A stretch of 64,000 bases of DNA. It comes from Viola odorata (Eukaryota > Streptophyta > Magnoliopsida > Malpighiales > Violaceae). The notes under the pieces were generated by a model. It did no database searches and was not told the origin of the DNA. It saw only the letters and a list, made by a program, of their open reading frames with translations. The stretch covers positions 51,310,327-51,374,326 of the forward strand of contig OY829539.1 of assembly GCA_963691705.1 (NCBI GenBank), read 5' to 3'. Below are positions 3,856 to 54,646 of the stretch, in pieces. How positions within the stretch are numbered: position 1 is the first letter of the stretch; each line of letters begins with the position of its first letter. The position numbers and the translations under genes were made by a program.

Positions 3856-3860
3856 GATAT

Positions 3861-5489
3861 TGATAGCACGTTTCATACTCTCGGTTTTACCCTCCTTTCT
3901 AGCCCTTTCGGGGGCTCGATGTCGCTATTTGACCCTCATTTCAATCTTATTTGCAGATTAGCATCAAAGGAGGGAAAAGGACGATAAGAAGCGATTTTAG
4001 AGCATTTCTGAGGACTTCCATTTTCCAGGCCTAGAAGAAAGAATGTCGTCAAGACCTCAACGCGAACCAGACCAGTGCGCTGTCTCAAGGTCTTGACAAT
4101 TCTGAGCCCTCTTCCAAAGAAAGCATCTTCTGAGATCTGCATGGAATCCCATGCGTTTCCAGAAGGCATCAGGCGTGTCAGGAATCCCAAAATATTCCTT
4201 TTGCAAGGACATGTGCTGTCACGCCCTCATTGCCCTTAGCTGTTTTTGTCTCCTAGCTAGTTTAGGCTATATAAGCATAGTTTTAGGGTTTTTGTAAGGA
4301 CGGTTGTTCCAAGGATAATTTCTTACATTAGTTTCAGCATTTGTTTTCTGGGGATCATCTCCTCTTCTCGATCAGGAGCAGCCATTGTCAACAACTTTCC
4401 TCTTCGATTATTTAATTAATCTATCGGTTTACTCTACTCCCCTTCTACTTTGTTTAGTTTATCATTGTATGATTTTATCTACCTACAATTTATATTATAG
4501 CATGAGTAGCTAAATACCCCTTTCTTGGTGAAGGGTGTTCCACGGGTTGTAGAGTTCGGCTAAGAGGTCTAATGCATGCTTAACATATTCTCTTGTGACA
4601 CATAACTATTTACCGATTTAATTACATGCTTGTCTAGAAATGTTAAGAGCTTGATCATCTTTTAGTATTTCTGCATGAGTAACGTCATATTCCAGGGTTA
4701 TAACTGACGCGAAGCCCTGGAGTTTGAGCAGACACCTAGGGGAGGCAGCGCGAGAGGCCTCACCTAGGGGTAAATAGTTATCTAGGGTATGCGATACGAG
4801 TCTGACAAGCTGAGCTATCGCGCCCTAGATCTGTCTTACCTCTCCTTCATGGGCGTTCTGAATTTAGCCTCCCTACTTTGAGCTCGTGACAGGCCGGACG
4901 GTCAAGGCTACCTTCTGATGACAAGGGAGGTAGCTGGGAGGATGGTTGAACGTCAAGGTCACCTCATATGTGGAAACGGGGGGTGACTTTTATCTACGAA
5001 GGTAAGCAGGGGATGCGGTGTGGAAACGCGGTCCCTATAGCAGATCTGCACATGATTCTGGAAAACCTCTGCACCGATGACTAGCCGACCTAGAAAACAA
5101 CCCAAGGGAGTACCTTTCGCTAAGATCTCGTCCTATTTGATTAATATCCTTTTCATTACTTTTCTTGCATTCGATCTGTTTACATCTCTTGGTCTGAGTT
5201 ACAATTTACATCTCTTGCCCTGGATTAAGATTTACTTTCGTGCCCTAGATAAGTACTTTCCAATTCTGGTTTGTTAGCTCCCATACTCTGCGTTGATTAA
5301 TTTATTAATCAACATAAAACCCCCCCTTTACTGTTACTTTGGTTAGATCTGTTGCGTATTGCCTTGTCATACATACTCACTAGCAATTCATTCCTTCAAT
5401 CTCTGTGGTTCGACCCTGTCTTGCTCTGTACCCATTAATTTGTGCATTTAGCCATCAGGATAAATTTAAGTATATTTGACTGACGATCA
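3861..5489 (+). repeat. 5' LTR of element A
   Basis: The LTR is 1,629 bp, starts TGATAGCACG and ends GACGATCA. A TATA-like box (CTATATAAGC) lies at 4267-4276. A perfect inverted repeat GTTGATTAAT-TT-ATTAATCAAC near 5292-5313, followed by a C run, lies in the probable U5. GGTTCGACCC at 5407-5416 matches a tRNA T-arm/B-box. The family motif TTTCGGGGGCTCGA is at 3906-3919. Confidence 0.95.
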
Positions 5490-13579: not shown

Positions 13580-15253
13580 CCCACCCCCGAACATTTTCAC
13601 CTCTCCAGCCCCCGAAAGGGGCACTAAACAATTTTACTATTTTTACTTTGTACTGTACTTATATTTCTTGAACTCCTTCTTATACTCTCCTCGCATTGAG
13701 GACAATGCGCTGCCTAAGTGTGGGGAGGGAATTATTTATGCGTTTTGCTTGTGTGATTGCATGCTTATTTTCACGTTTGCTGCATGATTGCATGATCTTC
13801 GGATTTTATTTTTAGCCTTGCTAGGAAAATTTTCCCACTATCAGTTTTCAAACCCTCATTTTTGGCATGCGTTTTTCAACTTTCGATGCATAGAAGAAGC
13901 ACGACATCCATAACACCTACGCCTGAACATGCATTTTTAGACCTGCTAGCCCTTATATCCATATCTAGGCCACGACACCAGTAGTCATAATTTGATCCCG
14001 TGAGCATATTTGATCTTCATGCCCTTTTATTTTTGAGAAAAAATGCTTAGCTAGGCACAGTCTAGGTTTGCATGATATCCCTGGGTATAGTCACTGTTAG
14101 GACATTGGAAAGCTTAGAAATGACAAAAAACTTCGCATCAATGTCTCTTTCTTTCTCTTCCCCTCCCCCCCCCCCCCCCCCCCTCTCTCTTTTCTTTTCA
14201 AGCCCCCGACATTCCCCTTCTTTTCATACTCTCTCATAACCATTCGCCTTTTCTTGATCCTTTTCCTTGGCAGGTGAGGTAGCGATTATTGAGGGCAACA
14301 TCGAGGGCTAGATACCTAAAGTGCGCAGACAAGCCCAAGTGTAGGGAAGGAAAACAAAAATAAAAGACTTCAGAGCAGAAAGCAGGAATCTAGGGCAAGA
14401 AAAGCAAAAGCTCGAAAGAGTTTTGAGCCCTAGACCATTCATACAATTCGAGCCCCAGAAACATTCAAGTGTGGGGAAGCGAAAAAGAAGTCACCATCGA
14501 TGCTGGAAGCAGATCAAGGGCGAGCGCTGAGCGGAAGATCAAAAGTTTCGCGCCCTAGTAGAATCATCTCGTGCCATCTCCTTTACTCGAAAAAAAAACA
14601 TTTAAATTTCAAAATAAGAGGAGAAGGGCTCCGAACGTCCAAGTAAAAGCATCCGCATCCGAAGCCTCAATAAGAAGACTTTCCTGCCCCCGAAAGAAGA
14701 CCTTTGTCTAGCCCCCGAATCATCTCGTGCCCTCGATGAAAGCTGCCTCGCCACTTCGCTTTTCTCAGCCAAGGGATCCAACCAGGTTTTGCCTGGTTCT
14801 TTCTTTTCTTTCCTTCTTTTCTCCCCTCATTTCCCTTCTGTTCATCTCCTACTTCTCTCTTCCACCTTTCTAGCTCTTTCGATCCCGTTTCTTTCTTCTT
14901 GCTGATGCGATGCTTTTCCGATTGTTGATTACCCATGCATGTGTTCTACAGTACTCGGATTGACGTGCAAACCATGCCTGTGTTGTGTTATTTGCATTCA
15001 TAAGTGGTAGCCTAAACACATATTTTATTCTGAGTATGAGTGCAAATACATAACTTTGTGAGGACTGCTGGTGAATAGGCTAGATATGGAAAAGTCTGGT
15101 TGATAGGGTCGTTATTCTATCAGCCGGATGTAGGTGCTTTTCTAGGTCTGGATTTGTTCTGGTTGGGTGTAGCTTGTAGGATGGCGTGCCAATTCTAGGT
15201 GTTGGGAGTTGATTATGTATGTTTAGGAATGAGGTGACTTTCCAATTTTGTTT
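13580..15253 (+). other. Long non-coding 3' region of element A
   Basis: About 1.7 kb without a convincing ORF. It contains the internal hairpin/purine module (13692-13729), a pyrimidine tract with a long C run (about 14160-14190), two further purine blocks AAGTGTAGGGAAGG (near 14337) and AAGTGTGGGGAAGC (near 14467), and several CCCCCGA family motifs (13601, 14201, 14684, 14701). Confidence 0.7.
13692..13729 (+). promoter_or_regulatory. Internal hairpin plus purine tract (second-PPT-like module)
   Basis: CGCATTG-AGGA-CAATGCG (13692-13709) forms a perfect 7-bp stem with an AGGA loop. Five nt later comes TAAGTGTGGGGAGGG, which matches the PPTs at the 3' LTRs of B and C. The same module is at 32725-32762 (B) and 54517-54554 (C). 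Confidence 0.7.
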
Positions 15254-15291
15254 ATGCTCGAGGGCGAGCATAGGGGCAATGTGGGGATGTT
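15254..15291 (+). promoter_or_regulatory. Terminal hairpin and polypurine tract of element A
   Basis: ATGCTCG-AGGG-CGAGCAT (15254-15271) is a 7-bp perfect stem. It is followed at once by AGGGGCAATGTGGGGATGTT (15272-15291), the PPT that abuts the 3' LTR. Confidence 0.75.
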
Positions 15292-16919
15292 TGATAGCAC
15301 GTTTCATACTCTCGATTTTACCCTCCTTTCTAGCCCTTTCGGGGGCTCGATGTCGCTATTTGACCCTCATTTCAATCTTATTTGCAGATTAGCATCAAAG
15401 GAGGGAAAATGACGAGAAGAAGCGATTTTATAGCATTTCTGAGGACTTCCATTTTCCAGGCCTAGAAGAAAGAATGTCGTCAAGACCTCGACGCGAACCA
15501 GACCAGTGCGTTGTCTCAAGGTCTCGACAATTCTGAGCCCTCTTCCAAAGAAAGCATCTTCTGAGATCCGCACGGAATCCCATGCATTTCCAGAAGGCAT
15601 CAGGGGTGTCAGGAATCCCAGAATATTCCTTTTGCAAGGACATGTGCTGTCACGCCCTCATTGCCCTTAGCTGTTTTTGTCTCCTAGCTAGTTTAGGCTA
15701 TATAAGCATAGTTTTAGGGTTTTTGTAAGGACGGCTGTTCCAAGGATAATTTCTTACATTTGTTTCAGCATTTGTTTTCTGGGGATCATCTCCTCTTCTC
15801 GATCAAGAGCAGCCATTGTCAACAACTTTCCTCTTCGATTATTTAATTAATCTATCGGTTTACTCTACTCCCCTTCTACTTTCTTTAGTTTATCATTGTA
15901 TGATTCTATCTACCTACCGTTTATATTATAGCATGAGTAGCTAAATACCCCTTTCTTGGTGAAGGGTGTTCCACGGGTTATAGAGTTCGGCTAAGAGGTC
16001 TAATGCATGCTTAACATATTCTCTTGTGACACATAACTATTTACCGATTTAATTACATGCTTGTCTAGAAATGTTAAGAGCTTGATCATCTTTTAGTATT
16101 TCTGCATGAGTAACGTCATATTCCAGGGTTATAACTGACGCGAAGCCCTGGAGTTTGAGCAGACACCTAGGGGAGGCAGCGCGAGAGGCCTCACCTAGGG
16201 GTAAATAGTTATCTAGGGTATGCGATAAGAGTCTGACAAGCTGAGCTATCGCGCCCTAGATCTGTCTTACCTCTCCTTCATGGGCGTTCTGAATTTAGCC
16301 TCCCTACTTCGAGCCCGTGACAGGCCGGAGGGTCAAGGCTACCTTCTGATGACAAGGGAGGTAGCTGGGAGGATGGTTGAACGTCAAGGTCACCTCATAT
16401 GTGGAAACGGGGGGTGACTTTTATCTACGAAGGTAAGCAGGGGATGCGGTGTGGAAACACGGTCCCTATAGCAGATCTGCACATGAGTCTGGAAAACCTC
16501 TGCACCAATGACTAGCCGACCTAGAAAATAACCCAAGGGAGCACCTTTCGCTAAGATCTCGTCCTATTTGATTAATATCTTTTTCATTACTTTTCTTGCA
16601 TTCGATCTGTTTACATCTCTTGGTCTGAGTTACAATTTACATCTCTTGCCCTGGATTACGATTTACTTTCGTGCCCTAGATAAGTACTTTCCAATTCTGT
16701 TTTGTTAGCTCCCATACTCTGCGTTGATTAATTTATTAATCAACATAAAACCCCCCCTTTACTGTTACTTTGGTTAGATCTGTTGCGTATTGCCTTGTCA
16801 TACATACTCACTAGCAATTCATTCCTTCAATCTCTGTGGTTCGACCCTGTCTTGCTCTGTACACATTAATTTGTGCATTTAGCCATAGGATAAATTTAAG
16901 TATATTTGACTGACGATTA
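15292..16919 (+). repeat. 3' LTR of element A
   Basis: 1,628 bp, starting TGATAGCACG and ending GACGATTA (terminal CA mutated to TA). It is nearly colinear with the 5' LTR. The TATA-like box is at about 15699-15707, and the B-box-like GGTTCGACCC at 16838-16847. The TSD GATAT follows at 16920. Confidence 0.95.
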
Positions 16920-30207: not shown

Positions 30208-31740
30208 TGACCGCGCGTCGAACACGTCAAATATAGTAGTGAAATAGTTATGAAATTGGGGGTAGAAATACAACTTATCACTGTCTACAATAGCTTGTAG
30301 ATGATGGTAAGAGGATCGTCCACAGAGACCTCTAGGAGATGTAGTTCTTGAGTTTGACTTCCTCGTCACTGAGTGTTGGTTGGTTGTTATCTGAAACTAA
30401 AGACAAAACGGAAAGCAATGAAAACAGTTTAAAATATAAAGTAGTATTGGCCGAAGTCTAGGCCAAGACTGCGGGCTAGATTGGGAAAAAGTCTTGTGAT
30501 ACGGAATTCCAGGTAAGGGCGATGGGTGAGCTTGCGTTCTTATGCATCGATCATGGACTGAAGTATGTTCATCTCTTCTTCATAGTACTGCTATAGAGGG
30601 GAGGAACTCATTTTCCCTCCTATCTTCCCTCCTCTTCAAACTATCTGGCGGGTACTCCCTCTCCTGATAATCCTAGTCAAGGGACACCTTGCTGGTTAAA
30701 GGGTTTATCCGTTTGACTGCTGTCTTGAATGGTTGCTCACCTCTTCAATGGCACAGGGGAAGACAGTACCTAGGCTAAGTTCCTAGGTTGTCAATCTGGT
30801 CTCTACCTATTTTACCTACTCTTCTAGTCTGCTCGAGACTAGTCACCTACTCCGTCTAGCCGGCGGGTACTCCCTCTCCTTCTAGACTGGTTACAACTCT
30901 TCTCTCCTAGAGAACAAGGATGATCAAACCTTGGCTCTAGTGAGTAAGCGATGGATTAAGTTCAAGAATAAATAAATACAAAGAAAGAGATTGTGAAGAA
31001 CGGATTGTGTCTCACGATTGCATTAAGAACTTCAGCTCATCACCCTTACCAAGAATGGGGTTTTTAGTTACTCATACTCATGGATAAAAGATAAAGAAAT
31101 TAATTTGCATAAATATATTAAATCCGAAATAAATTCGGAGCAAGGTTTTTAACAATGGTGAACTAAGAAAAGGAAGATTGCGTTCTAACTGGGAGAGTCT
31201 TCTCGGAGATGATGCGGACAGAGGCCAATGATGTTTAGCTAAAATAGCCATAAGAACCTCTGTCCCAATCAAACTCAAACTCCTAAAATATCCTAAAAGA
31301 TAATTACAATTAATTGTTTCTAAAAAGGAAACTAAATCGCAATTAATTAAAAGAGGGAGATCCCAATCGGGATTCTACTTAAGATTGTCTTCAGATCCCT
31401 CTAAAATTGCTGGACAGCTGCTACGTGCCAGCTGTGAGAGTCCATCTCCAAAAATACTTCAATCGCTCCAAGCTGCAGTCTGATCGCAAAGGAGTCTTGG
31501 CCGAAGTCTAGGCCAAGACGATTCTGGTAAGCGCACTGCGTCAGATACGACCTTGTCTAGGCCAAGATCCAGGCCTAGACTTGAATAAACAGCTTCAGCT
31601 CTAAACTTCATGAATTCTTCTCATTCTGCCTCCAAACCAGACCTGATCAAATGTGGGAAATAAAAGGTAACATCAGTAGAATTACTGTCCAAATTAACTA
31701 GAAAATGGACAATAAAACATGATGAAATGCAATGCAATCA
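30208..31740 (-). repeat. 3' LTR of element B
   Basis: 1,533 bp; on the plus strand starts TGACCGCGCG and ends GCAATGCAATCA. It contains family motif copies at 30447-30484, 31493-31520 and 31551-31581, and a hairpin CTACAA-GCTA-TTGTAG (minus sense) followed by a C5 run. The small reverse ORF near 31078-31278 is also present in the other LTR and is not a convincing gene. Confidence 0.95.
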
Positions 31741-31777
31741 AACTCCCCACACTTAAACAATGCTTGCCCCCAAGCAT
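31741..31777 (-). promoter_or_regulatory. Terminal hairpin and polypurine tract of element B
   Basis: On the minus strand ATGCTTG-GGGG-CAAGCAT (31777-31760) forms a 7-bp stem. It is followed by TGTTTAAGTGTGGGGAGTT, which abuts the LTR. Confidence 0.75.
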
Positions 31778-32835
31778 ACAGACTCAAAGACTCAACAAAA
31801 ATTAAAAACACATCAAAACAGAACAAACATCCTAAACCCCCTGGACTTCCTCATTTTCAGATTGCTTACCCCTATACTACAACTGCCAAGACACTAAACT
31901 AGAGTACCCAATGCTAGACTAACAAGGAATGATCAATACCCCAAACGTACACCTTCCACATGGTATCAAGACACCCTACTAGACTAGATGGATAAAGTAT
32001 AGGGCAACAAGGTTCACCAAGGATTTAAGTCCCCCCCGAGTGTCGTCTATTCAAAAGTGTCTAAAGACCGGTGCCATTTAAATCACTTTGACAGAAATAT
32101 TTCTTCTTTTATTTTCTTTTGTGTCTTAGCAAATTTTTTTCTGAAAAATCATGCGTCTTTTCTGTGATATATTTTCTGTTTTATAGACACGGTAATACAT
32201 AGACAGAGCTTGTCCTTTTCAGCGGGGACTTCCACCTTTGCTATGTCTGTCCTATGACATTCCAACACCTTATTTGTCTCACACTACAAACAAATAGATC
32301 GACACACTCAAATCCGGCAGCAAACCTCATTACCCTAATAGAAATAAAGGTCCTAGCTAGGTGTCCTTACGACCATATGGATGACTAACGTTCTGGGAAA
32401 CATCAGATTAAATGTCCCTTAAACATTGATCATTTACGCTCATGTGCATCCCTGTTACTAAAACATTGTATTCCCTAGCAAGTGTCTACATGCAAATCCA
32501 CCAAAAGAGTAAACAATCTAAGCAAGAAAACAGGGATTCGGATGTCATACTCAAAACAGACTCGAAACATGCATAAAAATACAAATAAAAATCATGCAAA
32601 TGGCTGACTCTTTACTGGTCATGCTGACCTAAAAATTAAAACACACTAATTTGACTCACAAAAACAGACAAAAAACACACAAGCAAACAAACAATATTCA
32701 TAAAAACACAAGACATATTTAACACCCTCCCCACACTTAAAAGACACAATGTCCTCATTGTGTGGAGAGACAAAAATAACATACTAAACATAAAAATAAC
32801 AGAACAGAAAAATACGACCTGGGGGCAGAAGCAAC
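31778..32835 (-). other. Non-coding 3' region of element B with internal hairpin/purine module
   Basis: About 1.1 kb without a convincing ORF. The module at 32725-32762 reads, on the minus strand, CACAATG-AGGA-CATTGTG (32762-32745), then TCTTTTAAGTGTGGGGAGGG. Otherwise AT-rich and unassigned. Confidence 0.65.
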
Positions 32836-41260: not shown

Positions 41261-42793
41261 TGACCGCGCGTCGAACACGTCAAATATAGTAGTGAAATAG
41301 TTATGGAATTGGGGGTAGAAATACAACTTATCACTGTCTACAATAGCTTGTAGATGATGGTAAGAGGATCGTCCACAGAGACCTCTAGGAGATGTAGTTC
41401 TTGAGTTTGACCTCCTCGTCACTGAGTGTTGGTTGGTTGTTATCTGAAACTAAAGACAAAACGGAAAGCAATGAAAACAGTTTAAAATATAAAGTAGTAT
41501 TGGCCGAAGTCTAGGCCAAGACTGCGGGCTAGATTGGGAAAAAGTCTTGTGATACGGAATTCCAGGTAAGGGCGATGGGTGAGCTTGCGTTCTTATGCAT
41601 CGATCATGGACTGAAGTATGTTCATCTCTTCTTCATAGTACTGCTATAGAGGGGAGGAACTCCTTTTCCCTCCTATCTTCCCTCCTCTTCAAACTATCTG
41701 GCGGGTACTCCCTCTCCTGATAATCCTAGTCAAGGGACACCTTGCTGGTTAAAGGGTTTATCCGTTTGACTGCTGTCTTGAATGGTTGCTCACCTCTTCA
41801 ATGGCACAGGGGAAGACAGTACCTAGGCTAAGTTCCTAGGTTGTCAATCTGGTCTCTACCTATTTTACCTACTCTTCTAGTCTGCTCGAGACTAGTCACC
41901 TACTCCGTCTAGCCGGCGGGTACTCCCTCTCCTTCTAGACTGGTTACAACTCTTCTCTCCTAGAGAACAAGGATGATCAAACCTTGGCTCTAGTGAGTAA
42001 GCGATGGATTAAGTTCAAGAATAAATAAATACAAAGAAAGAGATTGTGAAGAACGGATTGTGTCTCACGATTGCATTAAGAACTTCAGCTCATCACCCTT
42101 ACCAAGAATGGGGTTTTTAGTTACTCATACTCATGGATAAAAGATAAAGAAATTAATTTGCATAAATATATTAAATCCGAAATAAATTCGGAGCAAGGTT
42201 TTTAACAATGGTGAACTAAGAAAAGGAAGATTGCGTTCTAACTGGGAGAGTCTTCTCGGAGATGATGCGGACAGAGGCCAATGATGTTTAGCTAAAATAG
42301 CCATAAGAACCTCTGTCCCAATCAAACTCAAACTCCTAAAATATCCTAAAAGATAATTACAATTAATTGTTTCTAAAAAGGAAACTAAATCGCAATTAAT
42401 TAAAAGAGGGAGATCCCAATCGGGATTCTACTTAAGATTGTCTTCAGATCCCTCTAAAATTGCTGGACAGCTGCTACGTGCCAGCTGTGAGAGTCCATCT
42501 CCAAAAATACTTCAATCGCTCCAAGCTGCAGTCTGATCGCAAAGGAGTCTTGGCCGAAGTCTAGGCCAAGACGATTCTGGTAAGCGCACTGCGTCAGATA
42601 CGACCTTATCTAGGCCAAGATCCAGGCCTAGACTTGAATAAACAGCTTCAGCTCTAAACTTCATGAATTCTTCTCATTCTGCCTCCAAACCAGACCTGAT
42701 CAAATGTGGGAAATAAAAGGTAACATCAGTAGAATTACTGTCCAAATTAACTAGAAAATGGACAATAAAACATGATGAAATGCAATGCAATCA
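41261..42793 (-). repeat. 5' LTR of element B
   Basis: 1,533 bp, colinear with the 3' LTR and about 99.7% identical by eye. Family motif copies are at 41499-41536, 42546-42573 and 42604-42634. Confidence 0.95.
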
Positions 42794-47765: not shown

Positions 47766-49296
47766 GTAAGTGACCGCGCGTCGAACACGTCAAATATAAT
47801 AGTGAAATAGGTATGGAATTGGGGGTAGAAATACAACTTATCACTGTCTACAAGAGTTTGTAGATGATGGTAAGAGGATCGTCCACAGAGACCTCTAGGA
47901 GATGTAATTCTTGGTTTGACTTCCTCGTCACTGGATTTGGTTTTGGTGGAATCTGAAAATAAAGACAAAACAGAAAGAGGTAAAATAGTTCAAAGTAATA
48001 TTGGCCAAAGGCTTGGCCAAGACAGGGGTCAAGATTGAAATAAATCTAATAAAAGGGAATTCCATGTAAGGGTGATGTGAGAGCTTCTGTTCTTATACTT
48101 CGATCATCGACTCAAGTGTATTCATCTCTTCATTCATAGTACTGCTATAGAGTGGAGGAACTCTTTTTCACTCCTGTCTTCCCTCCTCTTCAAATCACTT
48201 GGCGGGTACTCCCTCTCCTGATAATCCTAGCCTAGGGACACCTTGCTGATTAAAGGGTTTATCTGTTTGACTGCTGTCTTGAATGGTTGTTCGCTTCCTC
48301 AATGGTGTAGGGGAAGACAGTACCTAGGTCAAGGTGCTTCCCTGTGGAAACCCTAGGTTGTCAATCTGGTCTTGACCTAGATTACTTATTTCTTCTAGTT
48401 TGGCGCGAGACTAGTTGTCTACTCTATCTAGCCGGCGGGTACTCCCTCTCCTTCTAGACTGGCTGCAACTCTTCTCTACTAGAGTACAAAGATGATCAGA
48501 CTTTGTCTCTAGTGAGTAAGCGATGGATTAAGCTTAAGAAATAAATGAATACAAGCAAAGAGATTATTAAGCATGATTTGATCTCACGAACGCATAAGAA
48601 CTCAACTCATCAACCCTTACCAAGAATCGGTGTTTAGCTACTCATACTCATATTTGAAAAGATAAAATATTTAATTGCATAAATTAATTAATCCGAGATT
48701 TAAATAAATCTGGAGCAAAGTATAATAATGTCGAAAGAGAAAAAGAGAAGGAGGAGAAAATCCGATGATGGACCGATCTGGACAGAGGAGAACAATGTTT
48801 GGCTAAATAGCCTTAAAACTCCTCTGTCCTACTCCAACTCTACTTCCTAGAAAATCTCTAAAATATTGTAATAATAAATTGTTTGAATCACAATAGGAAT
48901 TAAATCGCAATTACAAAAGAGGGAGATCCCATGCGGGATTCTTCAAGAGATATACGCTTCAGATCCCTCTAAGATTGCGGGACAGCTGCAAAGCCCAATG
49001 AAGAAACGGCCCAAGCGGACGATGATGACTGCTCAATCGTAAAAGAGTCTTGGCCGAAGTCTAGGCCAAGACGATCTGACTGGTGCGCTGCTTTGGACGC
49101 GAAAGTGTCTTGGCCAAAGTCTAGGCTAAGACTGGGAAAATCAGTTTCAGCTCTCCACATCAGAATCTCCAATATTTTTCCATCATACCAGAACTGCCAA
49201 GAAAAGGGGAAATCATGGATAAATCAGTAGATTTACTGTCCAAATAAACAAGTAAATAGACAATAAAACATGATGAAATGCAATGCAATTAGTAAG
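47766..49296 (-). mobile_element. Solo Athila LTR of the element B family (includes TSD)
   Basis: The LTR is 47771-49291 (1,521 bp), beginning TGACCGCGCG as in element B and ending GCAATGCAATTA. The target duplication GTAAG is at 47766-47770 and 49292-49296. Only one LTR is present with intact duplication, so the internal region was lost by LTR-LTR recombination. It differs from element B's LTRs by many substitutions and indels, so it is an older or separate subfamily member. Family motifs persist at about 48002, 49048 and 49107. Confidence 0.93.
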
Positions 49297-51613: not shown

Positions 51614-53282
51614 TGACGGGTGTCGAATCCGTTCATAAAATAAATAAAATACAACTCAGTGCTATGCTACAAATTAATGCAGATAGTGGTGAGAGGATCG
51701 ATCCCACAAGGACAAGCTTCGCCTAATTCTTGAAGTTCCTGTAAATAACCAAGTAAAAGAAACCAAGTTTTGGGGTTGAGATATAATTAAACAGAAAAAC
51801 AGTAGATTTGAGATCAGTTGCAAACAATAAAAACAGCTTTAAAATAGAGAGAATTACAGTGGAGAAAATATTCCGGGTAGAGATCATTGCGAGATGGCAT
51901 TGGTAAGTTGTTGATCATTGACAAAATACATTTTCGAAATGGTTTTCATAGAAGAAGTTGTGGAACCAGCTCACACTAGATTCCCAACCTGCTACAAAAG
52001 TATTTAAAAGAATCACTTCATTTTAAATACCCTAATCTTCCCAAGTTCATCCTAAGATTCTAATCCGCCACTTTGCCTTGGCTATGCAGAGCCTTCTACA
52101 AAGGAATCAGAATACTTATGGAAGCACTTGAGAGATTGATTAAATACAGTGAGGTCCCTCTTCTAGACAAGGGAATACTTTCATCATCCACGAGTCTGGT
52201 CTAGTCTGGCACTTGACCCAGCTGTCACCTAGGTCGGCCCTTCTCAAGGCCTCGGGATGGGATGACCGCCTAATTCAATCTCTTCTATCAGCTTAGACCA
52301 AGCAAATACCCCTCATGCCCTGCTGATTTGTCTACAAACGTTCTCTAAGAGTGATGTAATCACAAGAGAACTGACTACACTTGCCCGAATTAAATTCAAG
52401 GTGATCAAGCTCAAAAATTAATAAAGACAAGTTTAAAATTAAAACAAGAAGGTTTGAAATATGAAATTCATTTCTATGAAGCTTAAACAAGTCTCACAAT
52501 CAACATACCAGCCAATCTCTTGATCCCTACCAGGAACTTGGAGTTTAGTTACAACACATAATCAAAATAAAACAAAAGAAGTTCAAATCCGAAATTACAA
52601 AAAGTGCTGGAATTTCTGGAAAAAGTTGGTAAATGCTGATTTTTCTCCCTACTGTTCTTGATTGTCCTCCTCTTCTCCGTTCTCAATCTTGCTACCTTAA
52701 ATGGTCCGTTCCCAAGCCTGCAATCCCCTCTCCAAGGACAGTCCACGCCAGCTCACAAGCTCCCAAGAGCTTGTCCTCTAAGTGCTTGTACATGAGTGGG
52801 AATATTCTTCATTTAATCAAGAAGAATGTTGATTCATTCTTCCAAAATGTCTTCAAGCACATGAGAATAACATATAGGGGCCCAAGAAGTCTAGTGTCTG
52901 CAAATAATGTGTCCCAAGAAGACAGGAAACGCACTAGAGATTAAACAAATCCGGCACGCGGATTCATGGAAAGTGCAGATCCAGCTGGCCTTCCGGAGGG
53001 ACGCTTCTTGTCGAGGCCTAGAGGAGAGCTGATCTCGGCAAAATAGAGGAGTGGCCTTGAGACGAACAGACCAACTTCAAAGCAGCAAAAACGGAAAACG
53101 GGACTTCAACACCATATGATTGATTACGGCTCTATTCTTCAAGCTTTTCACTCCTTTCCTTCACATTGATGCTCCAAAGGCTGAATCATAAGAAAGGAAG
53201 CAAATAGGCTCAAAGTAGCATATTTACCATCTCAATTGCTAGGAAAAGAGATAGTAAAACAACCAAAATAATCCATCAATCA
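51614..53282 (-). repeat. 3' LTR of element C
   Basis: 1,669 bp; on the plus strand begins TGACGGGTGTCGAATCC and ends ATCCATCAATCA. Family motif copies lie at 52241-52267, about 53011-53033 and 53053-53072. The stretch from about 51950 to 52385 is almost identical to about 63130-63565 of the other LTR. Confidence 0.9.
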
Positions 53283-53320
53283 TAATCCCCCACACTTAAT
53301 CCATGCTTGCCCCCAAGCAT
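53283..53320 (-). promoter_or_regulatory. Terminal hairpin and polypurine tract of element C
   Basis: Minus strand: ATGCTTG-GGGG-CAAGCAT (53320-53303), then GGATTAAGTGTGGGGGATTA up to the LTR. Confidence 0.75.
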
Positions 53321-54646
53321 GAACTAAGACAGATAAAGAAAAGACTAAAACATAACAGAAACAAACACACAAACAGACATGCAAACAGCAAACAAACAAC
53401 ACACAAACTACACCCCCTTTGAGCAGAAATAAAATCCCTAGACTTGACTCATGCACACACCTCAAAGATCAACTCTTTCAAGCAAGATTCAACACACCTA
53501 ACATCACAAATGAGCAAGCATTCAGATAGTGGTATGATAGGCTGCTATACAACCAGAAAATACAAACCTAGGGCCTCTGTTTTCTTCTCCTTTCGACTCT
53601 TTAACCAAACATTGCTGCTGACTCTCAAGCAAATAAATTAAAAACGCAAGCAATAGGCAAAGAACATTATTAAAACAAGAAGTGAGCCAAAGGCTTCTTT
53701 TATTCTTCTTCACCTTTCTTATTCTATTTTCTTTTTCTTTTTCTTTTTCTTTTCTTCTCTTCCTTCTTTTTCTTCTCTTTTTTTTTCTATATATATATAT
53801 ATTTTTTCTGTTTTTCTCTTCCTCTTTCCGCATCCCTTTCTTTTCTTTAGGCCTTCGGCCTCTTATACCTCCTTTCTTTCCACAATCCCATTTTTTTGAA
53901 ATCAAAAACATGCACATGCAGACTTGACTCTCATCATGGTGCTATAATCGGTCCAACAACGGGAGTTAGCACACAACCGACCGGAAGTTTCTCCAAATGG
54001 GACGATGGTGCCGAACCACCAACGTCGTGCAATCCGGAGGGTATGATGAGAAGCCACACACAAGGAATTTAAATGGCACACAAGCAAGCAAAATTAAAGG
54101 ACTTTAGGCAGCAATGAGAGGATAGGATCCTCATCCCAAGATCTAAGGAGAAGCAAACAATCAGCCCTAGCAAAGTACTTTCTAGGACAGCAAAGCTAAT
54201 CATACATCTATGGGAATGAATGCTCAATTGCAAGGTCTGATGTATTCAATATTGCAAGACAGAGTTGATAAATCAAGTGTGTGCACAAGACAAGTTTTCG
54301 GGATTAAATTCCATGACAAAAGGGGTGGAACACAACAAAAAGGACAAACAAAAGCTGATGCAAAAGCAAAATAAAAACAAGCAGTGGCGCAAGCAAGAAA
54401 TAAAAATAATCATGCAGTAAAAAGAGAAAAACTAACAGGAGAAACATGCATAAAAACTAAAAATAAAAGCATGCAATAAAACACAAATCACAAAAATAAA
54501 AAGAAACACGAAAGTGTCTCCCCCACACTTATCGGACACATTGTCCTCAATGTGAATGAGACTGAACAACAAACAAACTAAAAGAAAACAAACAGCAAAA
54601 GAAAAGAAACAAAAGCAAAGGAAAAGGAACAGAAGAAACCGGGGGC
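53321..54646 (-). other. Non-coding 3' region of element C with internal hairpin/purine module
   Basis: No convincing ORF. There is a long low-complexity TTTTTCTTT stretch with a short (TA)n (about 53700-53830). The module at 54517-54554 reads on the minus strand CACATTG-AGGA-CAATGTG (54554-54537), then TCCGATAAGTGTGGGGGAGA. Confidence 0.65.

Follow-up and report, generated by a model that had tools for sequence, protein, structure and literature searches.

What role a second copy of the polypurine tract (PPT) sequence might play in a plant retroelement, when it lies beside a conserved hairpin between the last ORF and the 3′ LTR, is the question raised by a 64,000-nt stretch of Viola odorata DNA (hereafter the window; OY829539.1, positions 51,310,327–51,374,326 of the forward strand, assembly GCA_963691705.1). 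The window holds three long elements, A, B and C, and BLAST gives LTR pairs for A (+) and B (−):

3860–5487 (+), 5′ LTR of element A, BLAST limits
15292–16917 (+), 3′ LTR of element A, TG start at 15292, BLAST start 15291
30208–31740 (−), 3′ LTR of element B, LTR pair by BLAST, TG at 31740
41261–42793 (−), 5′ LTR of element B, LTR pair by BLAST
Element C (−), TG of the 3′ LTR at 53282, inferred from the motif; 5′ LTR interrupted by the window end

According to Pfam, element C contains a single ORF with gag, RT, RNase H, zinc and integrase domains in the Ty3/gypsy order, and pol domains are present in B, whose pol is 68–69% identical to that of C. Element A was placed by its likeness to C (63% identity over a 495-aa pol piece). 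The PBS TGGCGCCGTTGCCGGGG, which we take to be of the Athila type and to correspond to tRNA-Asp, matches exactly in A, B and C. Downstream of pol and ahead of the 3′ LTR, all three elements carry an additional sense ORF; against PF20167, that of B scores above the cut-off (48.1 vs 45) and that of C below it (32.1 vs 45), and the two 3′ ORFs of A matched no Pfam family. Judged from sequence, A, B and C appear to belong to the Athila lineage of Ty3/gypsy, as the domain order, the PBS and the extra ORF suggest. Elsewhere in the window, a B-type LTR (47771–49289, ~79% identical to the LTRs of B) has no mate at a matching distance within the window and is probably a solo or truncated copy.

In each element, an internal module lies ~90–250 nt 3′ of the 3′ ORF. 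It can be drawn as a simple hairpin (state I) or as a competing structure (state II), in which the left arm of the hairpin and the preceding pyrimidine tract pair with GTGTGGGG and what follows, hiding the PPT:

13692–13709 (+), internal hairpin (state I) of A, CGCATTG-AGGA-CAATGCG
13715–13730 (+), internal PPT-like tract of A, TAAGTGTGGGGAGGGA
13685–13729 (+), state II span of A, 13685–13697 pairable with 13717–13729, coordinates derived by hand
32745–32762 (−), internal hairpin (state I) of B, CACAATG-AGGA-CATTGTG
32725–32739 (−), internal PPT-like tract of B, TAAGTGTGGGGAGGG
32726–32770 (−), state II span of B, 32770–32760 pairable with 32736–32726, coordinates derived by hand
54537–54554 (−), internal hairpin (state I) of C, CACATTG-AGGA-CAATGTG
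54516–54531 (−), internal PPT-like tract of C, with GAGAC (54520–54516) complementary to an upstream GTCTC (54562–54558)

The original prediction had described the hairpins from the sequence of the window, and its observation is confirmed: all three were found exactly where it had placed them (A 13692–13709 on the plus strand, B 32762–32745 and C 54554–54537 on the minus strand), and the second and fifth stem pairs from the outside change jointly, as reported. TAAGTGTGGGG, said to follow at about 5 nt, begins exactly 5 nt after the hairpin in A, B and C, and the claim that it also forms the true PPT of B and C holds, the identical 11-mer being found at their 3′ LTRs; the terminal copy of A differs (CAATGTGGGG). 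The surroundings, described as otherwise not alignable by eye, proved partly alignable, with A and B matching at 72% over 72 nt spanning the site. In all three elements this PPT copy is situated between the 3′ ORF and the 3′ LTR, ~1.0–1.6 kb ahead of the latter and outside coding sequence. No Rfam family reached its gathering score within the window.

Several further tracts were seen in the same elements. Element B has a third TAAGTGTGGGG between pol and the 3′ ORF (35405–35395, −), with no adjoining hairpin detected by eye; a few bases earlier, a pyrimidine-rich stretch ending in TTTTTGTGCAG resembles a 3′ splice site. Between its internal and terminal modules, element A contains more degraded PPT-like copies (CCCAAGTGTAGGGAAGG, CAAGTGTGGGGAAG; 14336–14476, +) and a run of ~20 C at ~14164–14183.

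The original prediction had described a single hairpin per element. That hairpin is present, but the internal site has two competing structures, and a second hairpin of the same build, which had gone unnoticed, stands directly ahead of the true PPT in A, B and C:

15253–15272 (+), terminal hairpin of A, TATGCTCG-AGGG-CGAGCATA
15277–15291 (+), true PPT of A, adjoining the 3′ LTR
31760–31777 (−), terminal hairpin of B, ATGCTTG-GGGG-CAAGCAT
31745–31755 (−), true PPT of B, 3′ LTR TG at 31740
53302–53321 (−), terminal hairpin of C, CATGCTTG-GGGG-CAAGCATG, 15 pairs with G-U counted
53288–53298 (−), true PPT of C, 3′ LTR TG at 53282

Both copies of the module share one build, namely a hairpin of 7–8 bp with a purine tetraloop, a spacer of 6–8 nt and the PPT GTGTGGGG; the terminal copy adjoins the 3′ LTR and the internal copy lies 3′ of the 3′ ORF. 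At the terminal site of all three elements, the two hairpin arms precede the PPT and lie outside the 3′ LTR. The stem of A is set apart from those of B and C by a compensated T:A to C:G change. Measured start to start, the internal and terminal hairpins are 985 (B), 1233 (C) and 1561 nt (A) apart.

To follow the module beyond the window, pattern searches were run over the 699-Mb genome of the same species, with the reversed pattern as control. Fixing GAGGAC and AGTGTGGGG and leaving the left arm free returned 2252 + 2186 = 4438 matches, mainly internal modules with a few terminal ones bearing an AGGA loop among the matches listed, against 0 + 0 for the reversed pattern, so the association of hairpin and PPT is not due to chance. 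A pattern that also prints the left arm found 3813 places. The loop AGGA, claimed to be invariant, is so in the three window elements but not across the genome: among 100 listed of the 2930 matches to a loop-free pattern, inspection by eye gave AGGA 87, AGGG 11, AAGA 1 and ACGA 1. Searching for the hairpin core alone, with the PPT not required, produced 1084 matches (control 8); by eye, the PPT, with no more than two changes, follows at the usual spacing in 85 of 100 listed (in one of them 1 nt closer), and the other 15 comprise a GT repeat replacing the PPT (6), an unrelated coding-like repeat (8) and one other. This linkage was measured from hairpin to PPT. In the GT group, 6 of the 100 listed hairpin-only matches, it is the G-run of the PPT that the dinucleotide repeat replaces (e.g. 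G000 C1:27140399). When every fifth of 100 listed places was taken from the 4438 matches (n = 20), an uninterrupted internal stem of at least 5 pairs was observed in 17, and 15 were followed by a downstream terminal hairpin-PPT module at 0.95–1.7 kb, once at 2.6 kb.

The arms of the internal hairpin covary. In the first 100 of the 3813 places, the arms are Watson-Crick paired at 0.957, compared with 0.829 when right arms were re-dealt (none of 2000 as good) and at most 0.34 when the arms were slid by one or two; seven Watson-Crick pairs occur in 74 of these places and at least six in 97. Counted from the loop, pair 3 is T:A in 58 and A:T in 39 of them and pair 6 is A:T in 64 and G:C in 27; pair 1 is set by the search pattern and thus carries no information on covariation. 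Across 51 flank groups, state I is paired at 0.950 vs 0.849 after re-dealing, and 0 of 5000 permutations did as well, a result that, like the other permutation tests, is inflated by relatedness because every site comes from one genome. We also picked, blind to the left arms, 20 places with distinct right arms and a changed second base. An uninterrupted stem of at least 6 pairs was found in 11 (one of these a terminal module), including four new compensated types, CACACCG/CGGTGT, CGCATCG/CGATGCG, TGCACCG/CGGTGCA and ACACTTCG/CGAAGTGT; in the other 9, pair 2 or 3 is mismatched. State I has no strand preference (G-U 19 vs A-C 23 cells in the 51 groups), so that by itself it could act in DNA.

With the loop set to NGGG and the left arm free, a genome-wide pattern matching mainly terminal sites found 1704 places at one spacing (control 0) and 2757 at the next (control 4). 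All seven pairs are Watson-Crick in 78 of 100 listed places of the 1704; pair 7, A:T in 74 of the places listed and T:A in 25, differs even between otherwise identical sites. In the second set, 14 of 100 listed matches form a stemless group belonging to another repeat, indicating that the pattern does not impose a stem; 78 of the remaining 86, which include one hairpin of the internal type, have all seven pairs. An abundant distinct repeat (L081–L085; TAAAATACTGGGGGCAAACCTT.GGGTAGTGTGGGAATAC) has a similar G-rich stretch without a stem, and the copies fetched continue into short tandem-repeat arrays. The distance from the base of the 7-bp terminal stem to the TG of the LTR is 18, 19 or 20 nt in 6, 15 and 15 sites, respectively, that is, in 36/36 stem-bearing sites, A, B and C among them, the LTR start being known from LTR pairs in A and B only and placed by the TG motif elsewhere. 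Folding of 35 terminal sites predicted the hairpin with a probability of at least 0.9 in 23, 0.6–0.9 in 4 and below 0.5 in 8.

Folding of the three internal sites of the window gave z-scores of −2.8, −4.6 and −2.1, with a best fold other than the simple hairpin. States I and II use the same left arm and are predicted to be mutually exclusive. For 19 dissimilar internal sites, state II had a mean energy of −19.0 kcal/mol vs −15.0 with stem pairs randomly flipped and −14.6 with the upstream part shuffled, and neither null equalled it in 200 trials. The corresponding values for 11 dissimilar terminal sites were −6.9 vs −6.4 and −7.7 kcal/mol, and these 11 groups had no excess of state II-type pairing, re-dealt partners being as good in 4430/5000 permutations; at individual terminal sites, part of the PPT is predicted to pair upstream with probabilities of 0.00–0.85. 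An initial permutation test of internal state II in 19 groups found re-dealt partners as good in 11/5000 overall and in 1181/5000 for the outer flanks alone.

A larger internal sample of 112 candidates, selected for variety and not at random, was then aligned on state II. Ten were left out for weak duplex energy; by their stems, nine were terminal or unrelated and one (L114) was a decayed internal site. Among the 102 kept, 82 share one register and 20 are shifted by two, the latter mostly with CACAATG, CACTTTG or CACTTCG stems. Pairing in the main register amounts to 89–100% of sites at columns −2 to −13 and to 77% at column −1, and column (−11,9) varies between T:A (28), C:G (26), T:G (11) and A:T (9). 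The variable downstream part is paired at 0.721 vs 0.643 after re-dealing (42 groups; 0/5000 as good), with slid registers reaching at most 0.602; the core is near-invariant, so permutation is uninformative there (4269/5000 as good). In 51 groups, 1344/1530 state II cells are paired. Stability predictions favour state II over state I in 47/51 groups, by a median of 8.6 kcal/mol. The simple hairpin put forward as the internal structure is usually not the favoured predicted fold. Together, covariation and folding predictions support the putative two-state structures. Covariation across many flank groups, together with the near-fixed spacing, lends good support to the proposal that an RNA structure under selection accompanies a second PPT; the original interpretation as a whole is partly supported.

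What the feature does has to be argued from these patterns. At about even odds in our judgement, it belongs to a structured PPT module that is present in two copies and serves plus-strand priming, the internal copy being a two-state RNA. A second plus-strand start at the internal module is possible, and is favoured by the like hairpin at the true PPT. As reverse transcriptase copies the PPT, the resulting RNA:DNA hybrid would destroy state II, and the left arm, once freed, could refold into hairpin I immediately in front of the enzyme. Were the enzyme to pause at this point, the 3′ end of the PPT would be ~18–20 nt behind, within reach of RNase H, whose nick at the PPT would yield a plus-strand primer. 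The internal copy may then provide a second plus-strand start that is masked in genomic RNA until minus-strand synthesis gets there. More tentatively, and with the chances tilted against it, the internal copy would be a switch thrown by reverse transcription itself: a second origin kept base-paired in genomic RNA and mRNA, flipped by the enzyme into the pausing hairpin and leading it to cut its own second primer. If true, a plant retroelement lineage would possess a second origin whose use is timed and gated by structure. The distance between the polymerase and RNase H sites is near 18 bp in HIV-type/retroviral enzymes. In Ty3 RT, it is reported as ~13 bp (PMC5371799), which makes 18–20 nt a poor fit and counts against a simple ruler. 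The ability of RT to copy through short hairpins also weighs against the priming reading, as does the hairpin probability below 0.5 at 8/35 folded terminal sites, that of window element B included.

The main rival is an RNA role in the 3′ ORF message, in which the internal module would act post-transcriptionally on the genomic RNA or that of the 3′ ORF, in its export, stability, packaging or translation, and the PPT would have been used as a sequence at hand. Some retroviruses keep transport elements between env and the 3′ LTR. The position ~90–250 nt past the 3′ ORF in all three elements would suit such a role, and so would the confinement of state II, predicted to be very stable, to the internal copy. 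Against it, the terminal PPT has a like hairpin that keeps nearly the same distance to the LTR, which neither export nor translation would require, and the scanned leader/gag of A offers no loop complementary to the hairpin loop. We regard this reading as rather unlikely. The search for a kissing loop with the leader (stems of at least 6, loops complementary to RGGR) found none in A and scattered unrelated ones in the leader/gag of B and C, and this candidate was rejected. State II might alternatively act mainly as a strong RT stop that provokes template switching near the 3′ end and feeds mosaic evolution of Athila. Its helix is long and imperfect with many G-C pairs, and recombination among Athila families is documented (PMC2410132), but hairpin I and the terminal copy would be left unexplained; we consider this improbable. 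In a count of breakpoints, 5/38 close pairs were discordant across the module vs 2/44 in the control split.

A DNA-level palindrome or protein-binding site, in place of an RNA structure, would be in keeping with state I, in which G-U is not preferred over A-C. For state II, 388 of 1530 cells are G-U and 39 are A-C, and each G-U would be an A-C mismatch on the opposite strand, which speaks against a DNA-level site; this raw excess is itself inflated, since the PPT side consists mostly of G and T. Corrected base counts in the variable columns of the 51 groups (upstream base opposite G, C 94 and T 51; opposite A, T 70 and C 15) suggest a modest sign of sense-strand pairing. With the loop and spacer also asymmetric, a DNA-level site seems quite improbable. 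Lastly, an older PPT/LTR junction might have left the internal copy behind as a relic without function, kept only through the youth of the copies. Such a relic would be compatible with many related copies in one genome and with the ability of recombination to yield a duplicated PPT. Decay would break pairs on one side, though, and covariation argues against it, as do compensated stems that differ across elements with pol only 63% (A–C) and 68–69% (B–C) identical; we hold a relic to be very improbable.

The second PPT itself has precedent. Athila4 from Arabidopsis and Calypso from soybean have one extra PPT in the linker (Wright and Voytas 2002, cited in PMC2829016). Like the internal copies described here, it comes after the env-like ORF and before the 3′ LTR, and the role of extra PPTs in such elements is called unclear (PMC2829016). 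Where PMC2829016 cites these elements, the hairpin, the spacing rule and the alternative structure go unmentioned, and in searches of open-licence papers we found neither the hairpins nor the switch described for Athila. In a soybean relative, the pol stop lies 128 bp ahead of the PPT (PMC1142308). Sireviruses (Ty1/copia) have multiple PPTs and a PPT-flanking inverted repeat (PMC2829016). They resemble the Viola elements in repeating identical PPTs in the linker and in a terminal PPT structure proposed to aid RNase H, but in the account given there, the right arm of that structure is inside the 3′ LTR with the PPT between the arms, unlike the Viola module, whose two arms are upstream of each PPT, and upstream Sirevirus PPTs are without the inverted repeat, whereas the internal Viola copy has a hairpin of its own.

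A probable stem-loop with the PPT in its loop, in HIV too, is described in PMC3601003, a paper whose text does not contain the term Athila and which calls for a systematic search for PPT-linked stem-loops in other LTR elements; the Viola PPT, by contrast with the structure outlined there, is not part of hairpin I, and in state II it belongs to the stem. The lentivirus central PPT and PPT2 of Ty1 are likewise internal copies of the plus-strand primer sequence (PMC2829016). As presented in that source, they differ in being within coding sequence; the Viola copy, a putative primer with conserved structure, comes after the 3′ ORF, and in none of A, B and C is it found mid-element within coding sequence, as a central PPT would be. 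The Conserved Hairpin Site of fungal GalEa elements (Ty1/copia) is another conserved hairpin beside a reverse-transcription signal, which follows the 5′ LTR in place of the PBS (PMC5445492) and is not at the PPT.

Precise choice and cutting of the PPT is an old open question in reverse transcription. In thousands of natural copies, a hairpin that covaries keeps nearly the same distance to the PPT, is duplicated within the element and has a rival structure at one of the two copies only. This opens the role of RNA structure in plus-strand priming to direct testing, and suggests an overlooked RNA control element in the copying of Athila-type elements. Among viral contigs, a degenerate internal-module pattern found 12 stretches, none with a 7-bp stem by eye, and the terminal-module pattern and the pol of B had 0 matches each. 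Another 49 matches to a pattern from the B/C pol alignment were rejected as not being relatives. These searches yielded no relatives, so the present evidence is from one genome and not cross-species.

The module could also be used as a mark for Athila 3′ ends. At G000 C1:17303734–17314126, the internal and terminal modules occur together four times with a period of ~3138 bp (one copy being L059), in what is apparently a tandem array derived from an Athila 3′ region.
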